Source of the DNA: Loxodes magnus
Lineage: Eukaryota > Ciliophora > Karyorelictea > Loxodida > Loxodidae
Assembly (NCBI GenBank): GCA_946699065.1
Contig: CAMPDV010000502.1
Location: 124,001 to 188,000, forward strand
Reading direction: 5' to 3'
Length of the DNA stretch: 64,000 nt
The position numbers and the translations under genes are program-made. Below are positions 16,978-54,549 of the stretch, in pieces. Position 1 is the stretch's first letter; each line of letters starts with the position of its first letter. The notes under the pieces are model-generated. The model was not told where the DNA came from. It made no database searches and was given only the letters and a program-made list of their open reading frames with translations.

Positions 16978-17751
16978 TCAATTTTGTTCTAATGGCTGCC
17001 TTTGTCTATACTATTTTCCTCCTATTCCTCTATAAATATTTCTGGCTGTTCCTCCTCCTCTTCTCATTCCTCCTCTAAATCTGCTTCTTCTGCCTTAATA
17101 TGAGTATGGACGATTCATGGCTACTCCAAAAGTTTCACTATCAATTTTTCTTTGCAATTCTGGGTCTACTTTTCTTTCCTCCGAACCGCATGAAATTTGA
17201 TCGAAAAAGTTTCCTTTAACATAAGATGGTGCTTTCTATTCGCCAGTTTAGGGTCGCTATTCTTCTAATTTTGCGTTTGCTGTTCCAAAGTCAAAATCTT
17301 CTTTGTATTGCTCTTTAAGTGTTTAGTTTAAATTAGATTATAGTTCTCCATACGGCTCTTAGTAATATCTCTAACCTCCGTGAAAGTTTCCTCTGGATCC
17401 TCTAGATCTTCTTATATATCTTCCTCCTTCCCCTCCTCTTCTTTCTACCCTATTCCATTCAGGCTCTTCTTTTTTTTCTTCTTTCTTGGGTAGTTTGTTT
17501 GAAGTTTAAATGACAGTTAAATCTCTTATATCAGATCCTCTAAAAATAATATACTCGTAGACATCCTGACTTGCTGGAATTTCTTATCCATCTTTTCTTC
17601 TACCTTCAGTACCATAGCTCCTAACATTCGATAATGCTACTGTATGTTCCTTGGTGTCAATAGAGTATAAAGTTCCTTCATATCTTATTTCACTCTTGCT
17701 AATCAGACTAATCTACGAGCCAACGTATGGAGTGGCTTTATTCTGCTCCAT
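16978..17751 (-). CDS. LSM14: LSM14/Scd6/RAP55-family mRNA-binding protein, 257 aa
   Basis: Single exon. The N-terminal LSm14 domain (residues about 5-85) includes [20 protein letters not shown], the Sm-2-like [10 protein letters not shown] and [15 protein letters not shown]. An RGG-type linker rich in Arg/Gly follows (about 105-140), then the FDF motif ([14 protein letters not shown]), FFDQISC (FFD box), a TFG box ([11 protein letters not shown]) and a C-terminal RGG tail. This full domain order is diagnostic. The family represses translation and promotes decapping in P-bodies through DDX6/Dhh1 and 4E-T/Edc partners. It lies head-to-head with the plus-strand gene at 17995. Confidence 0.94.
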
Positions 17752-18623: not shown

Positions 18624-20183
18624 TCATATTAGTTTCTTCATCTGGTCTTCGAAGCTTCTGATGGTATTTGTATTTTTCTCAAGTTCTAGATGAATTTAAG
18701 AATTGATTTATCTAAATATCTGTAAATCATCTTTCATATTAATGGTATTTCTTCTTAGAATTATATTCTCTAGGTTATCTTTGATCTTGTTAATTTACTC
18801 ACTTAATCCTACATTTCCAGAAATTTCACGATTAAGCTCACTGTTTTTCTTCAAAACGTCGTTATAAATACTCACTTCTTTTCTGTATTTTCCTTGAGCC
18901 ATCAAAATTTGTTCCATAACTTTGTTAACTCTAATAAATTTCTCGTTAATGTCTCTACTTAGCTATTATGACCTAGCTGCTTTGATAGTTAACTCCTTCT
19001 ACAGATAATCTTGGTAGCTTCTTATTTATTTCAATAAATCCTATTCTTTCAGTTGCTACAGTTCTCTCATTTACTTTGTATGCTCATACCTTTAAAATAA
19101 CTCCTTAACGGTATTTATCTAGATAGGGTAGTTAGTTAGTGAGTATTTATTATTTTTGATGGCTTCTTACCAGAGATGAGGATCACAGTAGTAAATTTGT
19201 TGCTGTGGATTGTCATATTTAGATACAAATGTTTGCTTGTAGTTTTGGAGAGTTTAGATAGGAGGATCAAATTCATTTCTCATGTTATATAGCATTAGCT
19301 TGTATCTGTTTCTAGGGTCTAAGGGATTTATTTGACTGTAGATGTTCTGAATATAAGCATTTATTACTTAGCCTAGCTACTAATCTGAAGACGACATGCT
19401 TTGATATTGTTAAAATTAAGGAAGCATATTTGTTGGCTATTATCCAGTGTTAGATTATTATACCATTTGATGCTGAATAGGAAGACCCGCAAATCTGATT
19501 GGCTTAGATGGAAATAGATCTACTTAGGGTTGGTGATTTTATTGCTATTATAGCTATAGTTATTGCTGCTATAGTTATTGCTGCTATAGTTATTGCTGCT
19601 ATAGTTATTGCTGCTATAGTTATTGCTGCTATAATTATTGCTGCTATAGTAAAGATTATGTCTGAGGTGCTTATTACATTGTTTATCCATATAACCCTAG
19701 TTATTAGTTAGGCTACTATATCTACTATCCAATTTATTGCTATCCTAGTAAAGAAGGCTATGTATTCTACATTCCTGTAAGTCCAATCTGTTGCTAGGGG
19801 AGTCCAATACCTTATCTTTGCTAGTTTAGACCCAATCCTAAAGAAGGAAATCCAAGTCCTTGCTGAGTTAAACCAAGGCCTGATTAAGGTAATCCAATTC
19901 CTTAAGAAGCTAAACCAGCTCCTTGCTAAAGTACTCCTGTCATTGTCTAGTTCCCAGCTCCTAAAAAAGAACTTGCACCTTATTACAAGCCTCCCAAAGG
20001 TTAAGGAGTTTAAAATCCACTCTGCGGGAACATACTCACAGGTCTTTACGTCAACGATTAGTTAGCAGATTAGATAGGACTGATACCTGGAGTTTAGGCG
20101 TATAAATTATTAGTTATAACAGTCCCGGGTTATTACAGCAAATTGGGACCTCCTTATTAGGTAAACTAAGTTTACTAGAACAT
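18624..20183 (-). CDS. NUP54: Nup54-like nucleoporin, 519 aa
   Basis: Single exon of 520 codons. The first 250 residues are Gln/Gly/Leu/Pro-rich with repeated GLxG-type motifs (GLGFPSLGLGL, IGLTGM, QLGLYG), a degenerate form of nucleoporin FG repeats, followed by a poly-Gln block of LQQQQ units. The C-terminal half begins VINAYIQNIYSQINPLDPRN and continues YKLMLYNMRNEF. It then has long heptad-rich helices, as in the Nup54 subunit of the central-channel Nup62-Nup58-Nup54 trimer. A second TGA 18 nt further (18606-18608) is an alternative end. The gene diverges from the 20271 gene over only 87 bp. Confidence 0.75.
19553..19650. repeat. 15-bp tandem repeat encoding LQQQQ
   Basis: About six copies of ctatagttattgctg (plus strand). 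On the minus strand they code for Leu followed by four Gln, using TAG, CAG, CAA and TAA. It is an in-frame coding microsatellite inside the Nup54-like gene. Confidence 0.9.
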
Positions 20184-37568: not shown

Positions 37569-37826
37569 GGTAGGATCAATCCTCCAACTGAAACTGACTT
37601 AAATTCTGGTACCAGGAAGTACCCTATAGGTGAAAAACCAGCCAAGAGAAGAGAAGACAAGATCGAAGAGGCATCAAGTAGCATTAATGACGAAAGATGT
37701 CGGATACTAAGATCTCTTAGGCTAGCATTTCAATCGCAACCCTATAGAATACAAAATTCACAAGGGAAGGCTATCACTGTGGAAGATTTCAACAAGGAAT
37801 CCTTTAACTTTAAAAATTTGTATTAA
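37569..37826 (+). CDS. Coding-like GC-richer islet, possible gene fragment
   Basis: An 85-codon frame without any TGA, ending LY and TAA exactly at the border of the hairpin repeat. It includes KYPIGEKPAKRREDKIEEAS and QGKAITVEDFNKESFNFKNL. All four Gln are CAA and no internal TAA/TAG occurs, unlike neighbouring genes. Base composition is much less AT-rich than the flanks. No start Met in frame. It looks like a piece of an inserted or transferred coding sequence. Family unknown. Confidence 0.35.
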   Translation, partial: GRINPPTETDLNSGTRKYPIGEKPAKRREDKIEEASSSINDERCRILRSLRLAFQSQPYRIQNSQGKAITVEDFNKESFNFKNLY

Positions 37827-37865
37827 AGAGCTGCGCACCATTGAGACGCTACGCGCTCTATAATA
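37823..37865. repeat. Hairpin repeat, copy A
   Basis: A 43-bp GC-rich element with an internal stem (agagctgcgc against gcgctct) standing out from AT-rich flanks. Its reverse complement matches 47041-47083 with only a few differences, all in the loop region. It starts at TTAA. It may be a terminal inverted repeat, a small RNA hairpin or a miniature element end. Confidence 0.7.
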
Positions 37866-38573
37866 TCTTTTATTTATTTAAGTTCATCTTTCATAAAGTA
37901 GTCATATTCCTTTCTAAATTATGCTTATTAAATACTAATTTAAGAAGTTATATAATTAACATTAATTAAACTTAGTCTACATAAATTTCAACTCTCCCTC
38001 TTGGAAATATGGCTAATACTAGGGAAGAATAAGGTAAAAAGAGTGGAAAAAAGTTTTAGTTTGGATATTTAATTTTCATTAAGTAATTTTTTTAAATCAG
38101 TAGTTATGTGGTGTCGATATATGATTCAATACTGGGATTAATAAGGATTAAGATAAAAGAATATACTAGTTTGATGTTAGATATCAAGTAGATTTAGTTA
38201 TAGTTATTAATAATATAAAAAATAGAAAATACTACAACTATGACACTAAAATAGATTACGTGTTAGGAAGTTGCATTAATACTTCTCTTAGGAAAAAAGC
38301 ACTCAATTTAACATCTTGAGTTATATTACTTTATAGCTAATTAATTATTATAAATAGACTTTTATAACCTAATGTAAGTAACTTTTCTTGCATGTAATTC
38401 AGATAGGCCTAGTTACTAAGAGAAAAGAGGCAATTCAAGATTTATGAGTAGAATAAGAAAACTAATAATCTTTTTAGTTGTAATAACTTTAATATACTCT
38501 TATTCAACTATCTACCAATTAACTCTTTCTCACTACTGCTATTAGATCATTATTATAGACTTAACTTTTTTTA

Positions 38574-42245: not shown

Positions 42246-45200
42246 ATGATTCTATTAGAGGAGAAAATAGAAAGGATTTAAGAAGAGAAGGAAGAATTAA
42301 TGGACGAAGATTTAAACTGATTTTGCTAAAGAGGATAAATTAGTTTAGCTGAAATTTATGTTAAAAAGCATTCTGTTGGAAGCTTTTTAGAAGAGAAGGG
42401 GGAAAATTATCTGTAATGTAAGCATCTCCTTAAGATTTCGCAAGTTTGGGATTAGGAATTGAACTTTACTTGGACTTTATTAAAAGACTTTGTGTTTGCT
42501 TCTTTATTTTAAGCTTTATGAGTATTGGAAAGCTGGCAATTTATTCCAAAATCAAAGAAAATTACAAACAAGAAGGAAGCTTTTTTGAACTCCTCTCAGC
42601 AGGAAATTTAGACACAGAGTAAAGAGTAATTGATTTTTGAACTTTTGATGATGAGTATCTAAAGAAACAAAATATGAAAGAAAAGTATTGAAGTACTAGG
42701 ATGAAAATCTATTTGTAGGAAGATATGCTGTTGAAATAAAAGGATTACCTAAGAGAGGATTAACAGAGTCAAAGGTGAGAAATTTTTTTGAAAAGTATGG
42801 AGAAATTCATGAAATAGTCCTAGGAGGCTAGTGTAAAAGATTTATGAATAATTACAAAAAAACTAAAATATATAAAAATTAAAATAGCTTCAGAAGAGCT
42901 TAAATTAAAGGAAAAGAAAGAGCTAAATTAATCAAGATGATTCAAATTATATTGGTATCTTTAATTACTAATCTCTTGACAAAAGCTACAAATATCTTTA
43001 CTTTAAATACCACTTTGAAGTAACTCTAAGATGATATTACAAAAGAAAGAATAGGGGAAAAAGAAGAAGACATTTAGAAAGTCTTTATAATATTTGAGCA
43101 TGTTTAGTCATAAATAACCTGCTTAAATGATTATTAAAGATATAAATATTTTACTTATTTATTGCCTAAAACTATTCGATGAAATGAAAAGCATCCTCTT
43201 ATTGTAGAGCAAGCAAAGGAACCATCTATGATATTATGAGAAAACGTAGATTTATCCTAGAAAAAAGGAAAGTTAAGTTCCTTCATTATTTATTTCCTTT
43301 TGATTGTAGTCATATGAGTTTCTTTACTTCTGATTTATTCAATAGATCTAGCAGAAAATTCCAGCTTCCCTACAAAATCTGAATGTGAATAGTATTATAA
43401 ATCAGTAAACAGATTCATACTGAAAGATAGCTCTCTAAGAATTCAAGATCTATAGAAAGAATATGGGATATAAACATATAAATACGATACTACCTCAAAA
43501 GGATACTACTGTTGATGTTACTAGTAGGATTTTTATGATGTTTGAAAAGGAGAATCCGATGAAGCGAAGCTATGTGAAAATTAAAAAAAAGAACAGATAA
43601 AATACTGGGAGATATAAATAGGAAAAGGATTAGTAATTATACTATGAAATCAGATTATAACCTGAATCTTTACTAAGTTGAATAAGTTTAACCAAAAGTA
43701 AGATAAAGAAGAAGAAATGGTAAGCAAATTTAAAAAATTGTTCATATTTTAGTATTTTAATTATGCATTCTCAATAATGATGGTAGATTTGATTAAAAGA
43801 GACGTTTTTACTAGATACTGATATATAAATGTAGGATAAGGTATAACTACTAGTATCTTAGTCGCTATCTTTATACCTGAGCTGGCAAAAATATTATTGA
43901 AGCCTTTTTAGATACTTATTCAAAAGTCAAAATCGAAGAAGCTACAAACTTAATACGATCTGAACAGAACATTGCTAGGTCCTAAGTTTGAAATAATAGA
44001 AGGTTTATCTTAAGCAAGTGCAGTTTCTTTTGCTACTCTAACATTTTCTTCTAGAATTCCTATTCTCATACTTATATGCCTTATATATAACATAATAAAA
44101 TACTGGGTTGATAAATATCTAATTTTAACATACTATAGAAAGTCAAAATAAATGGCATTGCAAATTCAGGGCTAAATATAAAAAATGCTAAGCATAGTAA
44201 TGATTGAACATGCAGCTTTTACCATTTTCATACTAAGCAAAAGCGAAATTTTCACATTAAACTATGAGACATGCTTAATAGAGTTTAAATACAACTGCTA
44301 TTGATATAACTATGTACTAAAGTTATCAAAAAAGGATTTTTAAATAGTAAGTTAGAATTAGATTTAATGTAACCAAGATTGCTTAAACGAAAAATTTTGG
44401 AGCCATAAATGTGATTAATAGTGTGATTTGGAATAATGCAATTATGATAACTGAGAGTGCAAATGTCCTCCTTCATGTACCAAAGAGCTGCTAGCAAACA
44501 GTTTGCGTGATGAAAATTGTAATCATCAAGTTTGTAGCTGATATGATAATTGAAATTGTGGTTGTAATTTAAATTGCTCTGAAGGAATTATAGGAGATGG
44601 CTTCTGTGATCTAGAATGTAGTACAAAATTATGCAAATATGATAAAGGAGATTGTGACTGTGATACATAATGTCCTTATGAATTAACTATAAATGAGAAA
44701 TGTGATTAATAGTGTAATATAAATAATTGTAATTATGATAATTAATATTGCTAATGTGCAGCTAATTGTATTGATTATTATTTAAGAGACAACTAATGTG
44801 ATGCCGAATGTAATTTTGAATAATGTAATTATGATAATGGAGATTGCAACTGCCCTTCTTCTTGTACAAAAGATTTATTAAGTAATAATTAATGTGATTA
44901 AGACTGTAATTTAGAAGATTGTAATTTTGATAATTGGAAATGTTCTTGTGCAAAATATTGCTATGATTCTTATTTAGGAGATTAATAATGTGACTAAGAA
45001 TGTAATACTGAGGAATGCAACTATGATAATTGGGATTGCAAGTGTCCTCCTTCTTGTTCAGAAGATTTACTGAATAATATTTAATGTGATTAAATATGCA
45101 ATTTTCAAAGACGTAGCACTTATGATAATTAAGCGTGTTTGTGTTCAACTTATTGTTTTCCTTTTATTTTAGGAAATGATGAATGTAATAGTGCTTGTAA

Positions 45201-48200
45201 TTTTAGAATAATGCAATTATGATCAAGGCGATTGTAAATATCCATCCTATTGTACTTAAGACTTACTAAATAACAATAAATGCGATTAAGATTGCAACTA
45301 ACTTGAATGCAACTTTGATAATTGAAGTTGTATGTGTGCAATAAACTGTTGGGATGATTATTTATAAAATGGTTACTGTGAAGAAGTTTGTAATGTTGAA
45401 TAATGTTTCTATGATCATGGAGATTGCGAATGCCCTCTTTCATGTACTTAAGATTTATTAAATAACAATAAATGTTACTAAGAATGCAATTATGCTACAT
45501 GTAGTAATTATGATAATTGAAAATGTACTTGTTCAGTAGAGTGTCTAGATAGTTATTTTGGAAATTATTTTTGCAATCCAACTTGTAAGTACAATAGTGT
45601 AATTATGATAACTGAGAGTGTATCTGTAATCCATCATGTACAGAAAATTTTATAAATAACTATTAATGCGATGAAGAATGTAATAACTATGGATATAAGT
45701 TCGATGATTGGAAATGCACTTGTGCATATAAATGCCAAGAAAGTTTTTTAAGAGATGGTAAATGTGCTTGATAATTTAACTAATAATAATGTAATTATGA
45801 CAATGGTGATTGTTAATGTCCTTTTACTTGTACAACAGAAATGCTAAATAATAAAATATGTGATGATGAATGTAATTCCGTGGGCTGTAATTTTGATAAT
45901 TTAAGGTGCTTATGTTCAGATGATTGTTAAGCTTATTTTATAGGGGATAACTATTGCTAACATCAATGTAATGCTTTATAATGTAATTATGATAAAGGTG
46001 ATTGTTTATGTCCCGAAAGCTGCTCTTTAATTTAATTAGGAAATGGAATATGTGATCAATAATGTAATTTAGAAGAATGTTAATTTGATTTACTTGATTG
46101 TTAATGCTCTTTATACTGTAAACCCTAGTAAATTGGAGATGAAATATGCTAAGATCAATGCAATACTAAATAATGCAATTTTGATAATAACGACTGCTCA
46201 TGTCCTAGCTTATGTCTATCACTTTTAGCAAATAAATAATGTGATTTAAAGTGTGATATCGATTAATGCTTTTATGACTACTATGATTGCTGATGTACTA
46301 CTTCTTGTCATTTATCATTTTTAAATAATTCAATATATAATCCCGAGTGTTATAACAAAGATTGCATGCATGATGGTACTGATTGTTCTTGTCCTGATAG
46401 CTGCAATTCATTAATGAACAAAGGTATTTGTGATTTAAATTGCTCCTTAGTAGGTTGTAATTAAGATAACAATGAGTGTATGTGTTCTACTGGTTGCGGC
46501 GCTTTTTAATTAGGGAATCAAGAATATGATTTATTTTGCTTAACTAGGGAGTGCTTTTTTGATTATGGAGATTGCGAGTGCTCAACAGGATGCGATTTTA
46601 GCTAGTTATAAAATGGAGTTTGCGACTATTTTTGCTAAGTAAAAGATTGTAATTATGACCATTTTGACTGTTAATATAACGCTTCTCTAAAAATTCCTTT
46701 TATAAATTAATGATCAGACTAATGCTTTTTAGATTGAGTTAATGACTTAATATGTGACTATATTTGTTACAATTTTAATTGCAAATATGATGGAGATGAC
46801 TGCTCTTATAAATAAGTCTATTACAGCAAATGTACTTGCGATTTCTTATTGAGAAACAATTAAAAATGCGATGAGAAAGGCTTAAATAAAGAATGCCACT
46901 ATGACTGACCTGATTGTAATTAATTTCAGTGTAGTTCTGGTTGCTATTGATCATGAGTTTATGATGGTAAATGTGATATAACTTGTAATGTAAGTTTTTG
47001 TGATTATGATGGAGGAAATTGTGATAAATAAATAAATTTTATTATAGAGCGCGTAGCACTCTCGTTGGTGCGCAGCTCTTTAAAAAAAATGTTTCATACT
47101 GACAAGAATGTTTGTTACTGATAAAATTATCAGATACTGATAAATCTTGTTCAATACTGGTATAATTATTCAGTACTGATAAAATGTTCAATACTGATAT
47201 AATTTTAGAATACTCGTAATCTTTAATACTTGCTGGAGGTCCAAGGACATGGCAGGATTGTGTCTCATTGCATCACCAAAGCAGAGGACGACATGTGTCA
47301 ATTATGGGTACTTAAATTCCCCACCTCTGATGAAGCTCGCAATATTATTTCTTTTTTGTTCCAGTATTAAAAATAAACGAAATCAAATCAAGCCAACGTC
47401 GAAGGTCTAAGAATCTTATGTCTCGAGGCCAAACCAAAGCAGAGGAAGACATAAAGTCGATTATGGGTACTTAACTTCCCCAACCTCTGATGAAGATGAC
47501 CTTGTTGTTCACCTTCGAACAACTATGGCGGTTTTTATATATAATAAAGAAAAGGATTCTTAAAAAGATGATGAGAAATGTATATAAAATGGATTTCCTA
47601 AATACTGACTAGGAGATAGAATGTGTGATTAGAATTGCAACATACCAGAATGTAATAACGATTATGGAGATTGCAATAATTGCACATGTCCTTTAGAAAT
47701 AATAGGGAATAATAAATGTGACAAAGAATGCTTTACAGTAGATTGTAAATTTGATGGAGGAGATTGTGATAACGAACTAACTTATTTAGAAGTTTGCGCA
47801 TAAAAAGGATGCATTAACTAAAATATTGATAACTTAAAATGTGACTAGAAATGTAATATAACAGAGTGTAGCTATGATAATCTTGAATGTGATAAATCAG
47901 TAAATGTAAACAAGTAGATGAGATGCTTGGAGACTGGATATCCTTTCCTATCTTTCCTTTATAATGGTATATGTAATGAATAGTGTAACAATAAATAGTG
48001 TAATTATGATGGTAGTGATTGCAAATACGAATGAATAAAATATAAAAAGCAGTGCAAATTTACTAATATTTAAAGATGTGCAGTAGATAACTCTTTGAAG
48101 GAAGCTTTAAGTTTGACTTCGGGAATTCTGATGTGTATCATTATAGCTATTGAAGTGATTTATTGAGTAATATTGCAGATCTATAAATCAATAGAACGAA

Positions 48201-48934
48201 AATAATATGAATAAAGTGCATCAAAGTAAGAAAGTTATACTAAAGGTATGTTTTTATTATTTTAGTTAAATGAAACTAAACTTAATACTTATTAGGCAAT
48301 AAGGAATTGAAAATATAAGAAAGCAAAATTAGCTTTAGATAAGGAAATTTTAACTTTAGATTAAACTAATCAAAGGAAACAGAATGCTCATAATATTTCT
48401 AGCATTGATTAAAATCTGATGTTTCAGAATCAAGACCAAACAACATACTACTAGGATAATTAATCTTTTAAAATAAACTAAAATAGCGATTTTTAATATG
48501 AACATTCATAGAATAAGTGTTACTAAACTCTCCAAGAAACTGCAAGATAAGAAGTTTGTTGTGAGACTTGTCCTGAAAAGCAGATTTAAGACAATTAACT
48601 CAAAAATAGTTAAGAAAATTGACTAAATTTAATTCCAAATTCACTAACTATAGTAAAAAAAGATAGAATCTTATTTTAAGGAATTAGAGATGAAGAAAAG
48701 AAACAGCAACATAATAAAAATAACTAAGAACTATTTTAAATAAATTGTTACTTAAACTAATTTATTGTTTGCTTAAAATCTTTAAAGAATTATTTTTTTC
48801 TTATTAATTATACTTGCCGCTTTAATCTGTTGATTTAACTAAGTTTAAGCACATATATCTATTAATGTTTCATTTTTATCTTATGTTAAAAATATATACC
48901 AAATTTAAGTTTTTACATTGCATATGATTTATGA
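42246..48934 (+). CDS. TMEM63/OSCA(CSC1)-type channel fused to about 31 LNR repeats
   Basis: Starts MILLEEKIERIQEEKEELMD; introns at 42418-42434 (17 nt) and 42655-42680 (26 nt) restore one frame. Channel part: first membrane helix LCVCFFILSFMSIG, then the RRM-like PHM7_cyt domain (RYAVEIKGLPKRGLTESKV). The 7TM region follows (SSFIIYFLLIVVIWVSLLLI; LVAIFIPELAKILLKPF; FATLTFSSRIPILILICLIY), with the typical GP-F and YWVDKYLILTYYRKS. From about 44350 there are 27 modules of the form CDxxCNxxxCxYDxxxC (Lin-12/Notch repeat). A non-coding block follows (47035-47545), then four more modules, a membrane segment (GILMCIIIAIEVIYWVIL) and a Gln-rich tail. The register shifts by one base near 45208 and back near 45597, a possible indel pair or assembly error. 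OSCA/TMEM63 proteins are mechanosensitive cation channels; LNRs are Ca2+-binding, force-sensitive modules in Notch. The true stop could be upstream of 48934. Confidence 0.72.
47041..47083. repeat. Hairpin repeat, copy B (inverted relative to copy A)
   Basis: 43 bp matching the reverse complement of 37823-37865. It can fold as agagc-gcg...cac pairing with gtg-cgc-agctct, with small bulges. It ends at TTAA. Homology with copy A extends a little into the flanking aaataaataaa. Confidence 0.72.
47096..47229. repeat. Iterated ATACTGATAAA-type motif
   Basis: Six to seven copies of a motif near (a/t)tactgataaa, spaced 17-21 bp and gradually degenerating toward tactcgtaat and tacttgctgg. The regular spacing resembles iterons or a decayed short tandem repeat. 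Confidence 0.6.
47275..47335. repeat. Structured block, copy 1
   Basis: About 61 nt beginning accaaagcagagg and ending cctctgatgaag. The ends can pair (cagagg/cctctg) and gacatgtgtc inside is a perfect dyad. It is nearly identical to 47433-47495, with differences concentrated in the inner loop. Confidence 0.6.
47433..47495. repeat. Structured block, copy 2
   Basis: Second copy, with the inner dyad changed to gacataaagtc so that gac/gtc pairing is retained. An additional outer inverted repeat (cgaaggt at about 47400, accttcg at about 47511) encloses this copy. The pattern is that of a duplicated structured RNA or element core. Confidence 0.6.
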
Positions 48935-54186: not shown

Positions 54187-54549
54187 TCAAAATCCTACGA
54201 CAAAGACTGTAACAAGACACCACATGCTTTTGTTGCTTTGGTCTTTTTTATCTTTAGGCCAACATACTTGTATAAAACCATCATTACCACCATCAAAATA
54301 GCTGCTTGTAGTGCTATGAAGACCTGCTCCGTTTCTCTACATAATGCAACATGTTACTATATACTTGTAAGGCTTGAAGGTTTCTGTCAAGCCTTTTATC
54401 ACTTTTTCACAAATTGTGTTTATCCAGTGTTAAACCTTTGACTCGTCTCATGGTACATTCGTAAGAGTTTCTTCTATACATTATTGAGCGATTCCTTCAA
54501 CTTATCCATGATCAAAAACTAATTCTTCACCTTCTCCTATATCTACCAT
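54187..54549 (-). CDS. DYNLT: Tctex-type dynein light chain, 120 aa
   Basis: Single exon of 121 codons starting MVDIGEGEELVFDHG. The C-terminal half is diagnostic: [20 protein letters not shown] (family K-YIVTCxIMQKNGAGLH), then STTSSYFDGGNDGFIQVCWP (SSCFWDxxTDGSCTVRWE), then MWCLVTVFVVGF (MYCIVSVFGLxI). Full family length. Light chain of cytoplasmic/axonemal dynein that dimerises and binds the intermediate chain. Its start is 105 bp from the divergent gene at 54655. Confidence 0.95.

Follow-up and report, generated by a model that had tools for sequence, protein, structure and literature searches.

In Notch, three Lin-12/Notch repeats (LNRs) guard the HD domain and the cleavage site, while in PAPP-A and GlcNAc-1-phosphotransferase the LNRs occur in enzyme contexts with no channel. 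Channels of the OSCA/TMEM63 type have a different plan: TM1 and TM2 are followed by a long cytosolic RRM-like domain and then by TM3 to TM10, with a few residues between TM9 and TM10. Stretch gating is reported for OSCA/TMEM63, and OSCA1.2 responds to stretch in liposomes without other proteins (PMC6235560), so that it needs no tether. The description of OSCA1.2 in PMC6235563 places the C-terminus inside; the lipids that fill the cleft between its subunits lie close to TM9-10, to TM5 and to part of TM3.

We have analysed a 64-kb stretch of Loxodes magnus DNA (the 'window', with the whole stretch meant throughout), which carries a gene combining these two plans (Table 1). For the macronuclear assembly of this ciliate a size of 706 Mbp and code table 27 are reported (PMC11441545); the assembly searched here contains 705,730,643 bases in 7,843 contigs. 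Its code reads UAR as Gln and UGA as Trp. The window gene reads each of UAA, UAG and UGA as a sense codon, and three genes of the family to which it belongs use UGA and UAA 59.6 and 76.1 times per 1000 codons. Since all three stops are read as sense, an open frame alone proves nothing and the evidence for a joint frame is the collinear match to paralogs. A previous sequence-only reading had proposed a single frame running from 42246 to 48934. This holds for 42634-45201, where the cytosolic domain, TM3-TM9 and the first LNRs share a frame, but not for the gene as a whole, which contains frame changes and an insert. Beyond the insert, the membrane-proximal LNRs and the tail again follow the paralog C140 (53% identity to its residues 1707-1963).

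Table 1. Features of the LNR channel gene (positions are those of the window)
Feature	Position	Strand	Basis or remark
LNR channel gene	region 42246..48934	+	contig C502
N-terminal segment, probably cytosolic	42246..42396	+	frame of 42246; frame changes near a GGGGG run at ~42397; resembles the N-terminus of paralog C502b (by eye)
TM1 segment (LYLDFIKRLCVCFFILSFMSIGKLAIY)	42377..42679	+	tblastn; corresponds to C140 residues 45-145
One-frame stretch, from the end of the lost TM2 region through the cytosolic domain and TM3-TM9 to the linker and first LNRs	42634..45201	+	corresponds to C140 residues 208-1054, 47% identity
PHM7_cyt / RRM-like cytosolic domain	42724..43245	+	profile 2-174 of 174, 26.7 bits, cut-off 27
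TM9	~44194..44253	+	paralog alignment and hhalign
Linker with NCYWYNY...KKDF motif	after TM9, to 44367	+	
LNR array, main part	44368..47045	+	PF00066 and module model; LNR1 starts at ~44368; three frame pieces: to 45201, 45200-45598, 45592-47045
Inserted young mobile element	47028..47550 (ends approximate)		
LNR array, membrane-proximal part, downstream of insert	47579..48031	+	PF00066, P0004
Last helix, TM10 of the channel	48116..48178 (about)	+	hhalign through cut; paralogs
Cytosolic tail	48179..48640 (end provisional)	+	matches C140 to residue 1963 only

The channel was identified using a profile (A1) derived from an alignment of eight paralog channels and searched against the PDB. It matches TMEM63A (E 4.7e-8), TMEM63B and OSCA3.1/ERD4 (6.9e-5), in agreement with the OSCA/TMEM63-type channel first proposed. 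Against TMEM63A the best piece (22 bits) covers the cytosolic domain; the first helix aligns with residues 132-186 very weakly (4.2 bits) and the second from residue 196 on. Pfam, the check suggested for this part, gave a mixed result. PHM7_cyt is matched in the window along practically its entire profile, just under the cut-off (19.1 bits in P0008), and RSN1_7TM gives no match in the window copy at E<=1. At the same threshold PHM7_cyt is matched in five of the eight paralog channels and RSN1_7TM in two, several of the matches being partial. As the channel Pfam scores of the window copy and P0008 lie below the gathering cut-offs, pore function could have been lost. EGF repeats, an HD domain and ankyrin repeats were also sought in the window pieces and P0008, and no such Pfam family was matched at E<=1. 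A single protein database hit was obtained at E<=10 (4,899 candidates): P0007 (E 6.7e-3), an OSCA-like environmental protein in which Pfam finds no LNR.

The C140 paralog, with 1,931 residues in one frame (followed probably by an intron and a tail), shows nine hydrophobic segments above our own threshold; we infer TM8 as the tenth. Hydropathy gives no TM0 in its first 80 residues. TM0 therefore appears to be absent, unlike in OSCA/TMEM63, where eleven helices (TM0-TM10) have the N-terminus outside and the C-terminus inside; the helix order otherwise agrees with that of these channels. A ten-helix set without TM0 is also a feature of TMEM16/anoctamin proteins, and a weak anoctamin Pfam match occurs in four of the eight members (best 2.5e-6), about as good as the OSCA-family Pfam scores. 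However, the PDB profile prefers TMEM63A over anoctamin-6 (0.021), and the Loxodes family has a PHM7_cyt-like domain.

To place the array within the fold, the LNR channels were compared with LNR-free relatives. With hhalign, A1 aligns with P0007 to the end of TM9 (E 1.8e-9). Of 77 candidates for PF02714 in the whole genome, every one of them scored, 17 match at E<=0.01; five of these are strong and cover most of the model. These five canonical OSCA genes lie on contigs C20 (two), C145, C218 and C80. Three were read in part: the module model finds no LNR in them, and inspection by eye shows a few residues separating TM9 from TM10. When the array is cut out, the LNR channels align with a canonical OSCA of C20 over 89 columns (E 1.1e-8, 27%) with no gap at the cut; the cut was set by eye, so that its exact residue is our choice, but the last helix still falls at the place of TM10. 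By this alignment, the LNRs are an insertion in the TM9-TM10 outer loop. The 'further membrane helix' of the sequence-only reading exists but is not an extra one, since by this alignment it corresponds to TM10. LNRs appended after a complete channel were also considered, and are ruled out by the gapless alignment through the cut. In place of a few residues, the loop has about 1,100 in C140 and about 2,600 in C502b. Because of the OSCA1.2 topology, the array would be extracellular or luminal.

The modules themselves are clear. PF00066 matches the four window pieces P0001 to P0004 with E values of 1.6e-26, 4.6e-14, 1.8e-53 and 1.3e-22, and there are modules with six Cys above its gathering cut-off. 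As in Notch, they follow the pattern CDxxCN...C.YDxxDC. We built our own module model (31 residues, 171 seed modules), which counts 31 modules in the window, the number previously estimated from the sequence. It gives 32 in C140, 48 in C76b and 78 in C502b, 48 and 38 in two loci that are cut (C76a and C251), and 15 and 13 in the short arrays of C178 (in the channel gene) and C198. This range, and the lack of any HD family in the Pfam scans, distinguish the Loxodes family from Notch. All aligned Cys are kept in 204 of the 206 modules of C140, C76a, C76b and C502b. Module length is 31 residues in 171 of 201 pattern matches, mostly with one residue between modules, and part of the window array (44699-45093) has a DNA period of 96/192 nt. 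An AlphaFold model of four window LNRs (pLDDT 42) was too low for use, and the presumed stiffness of an LNR rod is argued from module spacing only. In C502b (minus strand, its 78 modules in one frame) Asp and Gln/Lys often take turns at the position just before Cys6, a pattern that duplication of two-module units would produce.

We consider the window gene a decayed member of an LNR-loop OSCA/TMEM63 family, for which a tethered, tension-gated channel is the likeliest, if far from assured, function. Like other OSCAs, the channel part would conduct cations and be gated by tension. The LNR rod, knit by disulphides and stabilised by Ca2+, would form a stiff outer lever or tether with its two ends fixed to TM9 and TM10, helices that would face the lipid-filled cleft between the subunits. 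Pull or push on the rod would then bias the gate, and paralogs with rods of different length would vary in reach and sensitivity. The 'spring or Ca2+-sensitive gate' of the sequence-only reading is a suggestion of the same kind. With as many as 78 Ca2+-type modules in a rod anchored at both TM9 and TM10, the family would provide a direct natural test of whether an outer tether can drive the OSCA fold.

The window gene belongs to a large Loxodes family and is not a one-off. A C140 channel query (639 candidates, 63 scored) finds at least 63 places, 62 of which cover at least 698 of the 708 residues. Around LNR hits we fetched 20 stretches from 14 places: eight stretches, in eight places, include a channel match, and the other six places do not. 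C76b and C502b each keep a single frame from their first residue as far as the tail (over 10.3 kb in C502b). For C76a and C76b, dN/dS is 0.30 in the channel (745 codons, dS 0.27) and 0.23 in the array and tail (1,647 codons, dS 0.41); this is our own Nei-Gojobori count for one pair, wider pairs being near saturation. By this count, purifying selection keeps both halves of the protein in the pair.

A family with this many copies could equally serve as a surface coat or in recognition. Here the OSCA-derived part would mainly anchor the protein in the membrane, or be a relative that does not conduct, and the work would be done by the variable LNR array (in adhesion, in prey or self recognition, or as armour). 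We regard this as unlikely, although it deserves serious attention: the family is large, clustered and variable, array length spans 13 to 78 modules in the copies counted, the same genome encodes LNR mega-proteins with no channel match, and the channel part has diverged from the Pfam models. Against it, C140 keeps its nine hydrophobic segments and the tenth assigned to TM8, the channel of the C76a-C76b pair is under purifying selection, and the array is lodged within the channel fold, with TM9 on one side and TM10 on the other, which is odd for a mere passenger.

The array could also act chemically: as a lid dependent on Ca2+, it would report or buffer the Ca2+ outside the cell or in a lumen and in this way, not mechanically, set channel opening. 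Candidate ligand residues are present in most seed modules: at the positions that we take to be the LNR Ca2+ ligand sites, D16 is found in 128, N20 in 133, D27 in 170 and D30 in 112 of the 171. Since a third of the seed modules are without D30, not every module need bind Ca2+. In C502b the last ligand site is Asp in 42 of the 78 modules, and its alternation between acidic and non-acidic residues through much of the array could be viewed as favouring a sensor. The remaining 36 modules, however, have another residue there, and tens of sites are more than a sensor requires. We therefore judge a Ca2+ sensor improbable, and return to the tethered channel as the preferred reading of the family.

The copy in the window, in contrast to its intact paralogs, appears to be a decayed member. 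Compared with them it changes frame near 42397 (by eye) and near 42660-42690, 45200 and 45588; a further paralog, C76c, likewise has frame changes. The residues matching C140 146-207, which include most of TM2, are absent by tblastn. Aligned Cys are lost in seven of the 31 window modules as against two of 206 in C140, C76a, C76b and C502b, the same four paralogs from which the module model was built, and the Cys-lacking module of C140 may differ in spacing only. A mobile element also splits the LNR array. One piece of it (47030-47330) is present in at least 39 other places with 98-99% identity (1,021 candidates, 40 scored, the window copy itself included).

Alternatively, this could be a working gene, with assembly errors or spliced introns behind its frame changes and an insert that is removed or translated. 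Much of its sequence is still near that of the family, errors could account for single-base changes close to short runs, and the introns reported for Loxodes magnus are short (mean 19.3 nt, mode 17 nt; PMC11441545). Some of the small frame changes could indeed be assembly errors. This is unlikely for the insert, a young element of high copy number, and for the loss of TM2; with the Cys losses added, a working copy seems very improbable. Two introns were tried and rejected. One of 17 nt at 42418 would excise a conserved SPQD stretch, and the frame-0 reading KLSVMQASPQDF matches the paralogs; another of 22 nt at ~45185 would delete LNR cysteines. Nor is TM2 present in another frame, as tblastn gives residues 45-145 and then 208 onward only. 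The element itself (47028-47550) is internally repetitive; a hairpin can be seen by eye close to its start, and a diverged piece of that start (86%) lies at 37812-37880.

Whether channel and LNRs belong together was examined with a 212-residue query across the junction, which located at least 159 places; of 4,069 candidates, 150 were scored. Among the 150 listed, and with duplicates included, 147 on 58 contigs are in one frame to the end of LNR1 (three are not), and 138 on 50 contigs, starting at TM9 or earlier, keep that frame until LNR2 ends. The latter fall into 104 distinct score classes, a rough floor for the number of distinct sequences. Three of the listed places also match PF02714; two exceed the cut-off only together with their in-frame neighbours, and one lies below it. 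Contig C502 has seven of the listed places, the window gene included. A k-mer estimate of the genome is 261-262 Mbp (PMC11441545); as the assembly exceeds this, the places certainly include haplotypes and assembly duplicates. Although open frames are cheap where all three stops can be sense, the chance reading-together of two unrelated neighbouring genes is extremely improbable in view of this repeated order and frame. The window copy has no in-frame ATG separating TM9 from LNR1, and the hhalign alignment runs through the cut.

Both the channel kind and the LNR module are already known; the combination, the TM9-TM10 site and the family size are new to the literature searched. The sequence-only reading knew of no protein with this architecture, and we likewise found no OSCA-LNR fusion in the open-licence literature searched. 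The protein database gave none at E<=10 among 8,000 scored, and full-length alignment none at E<=0.001 among 7,999 scored. This database probably handles the genetic code of Loxodes poorly, so that its negatives do not show absence elsewhere. With the A1 profile, no match was confirmed in viral contigs or genome contigs.

We know of no channel identified as the transducer of the Loxodes gravity organelle, and the LNR-loop OSCA family is a source of candidates. In Loxodes striatus, laser destruction of this organelle is reported to have abolished gravitaxis (PMC5460273). It is conceivable, as a highly speculative extension to which we attach very little weight, that the family represents a new class of tethered mechanoreceptor with its own gating rod in the TM9-TM10 loop. 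One or more members would then reside in the Mueller vesicle, where luminal LNR rods would link the barium sulphate body with the membrane and thereby serve the gravity sense.

A number of other features were recorded. LNR arrays without a channel match lie on C143, C155, C1023 and C1305, and many near-identical LNR hits are spread across contigs. C143a, the one array of these that was read in frame, resembles a secreted LNR mega-protein and has a PA14-like stretch (by eye only). Rfam and tRNA scans of the 64-kb window found none, and a codon-bias scan for neighbouring genes gave nothing useful, being insensitive enough to miss the LNR channel gene too. On the minus strand, the window contains a gene with an LSM14/Scd6-like Sm domain at about 17506-17730 (PF12701, E 1.7e-32) and a Tctex-1 family dynein light chain at about 54202-54495 (PF03645, E 2.3e-22). 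There is a weak Nup54 match in another frame at about 18789-19187 (20.9 bits, cut-off 30.5), and a tandem repeat at 19553-19650 consists of 6.5 copies of a 15-base unit with 97% matches.
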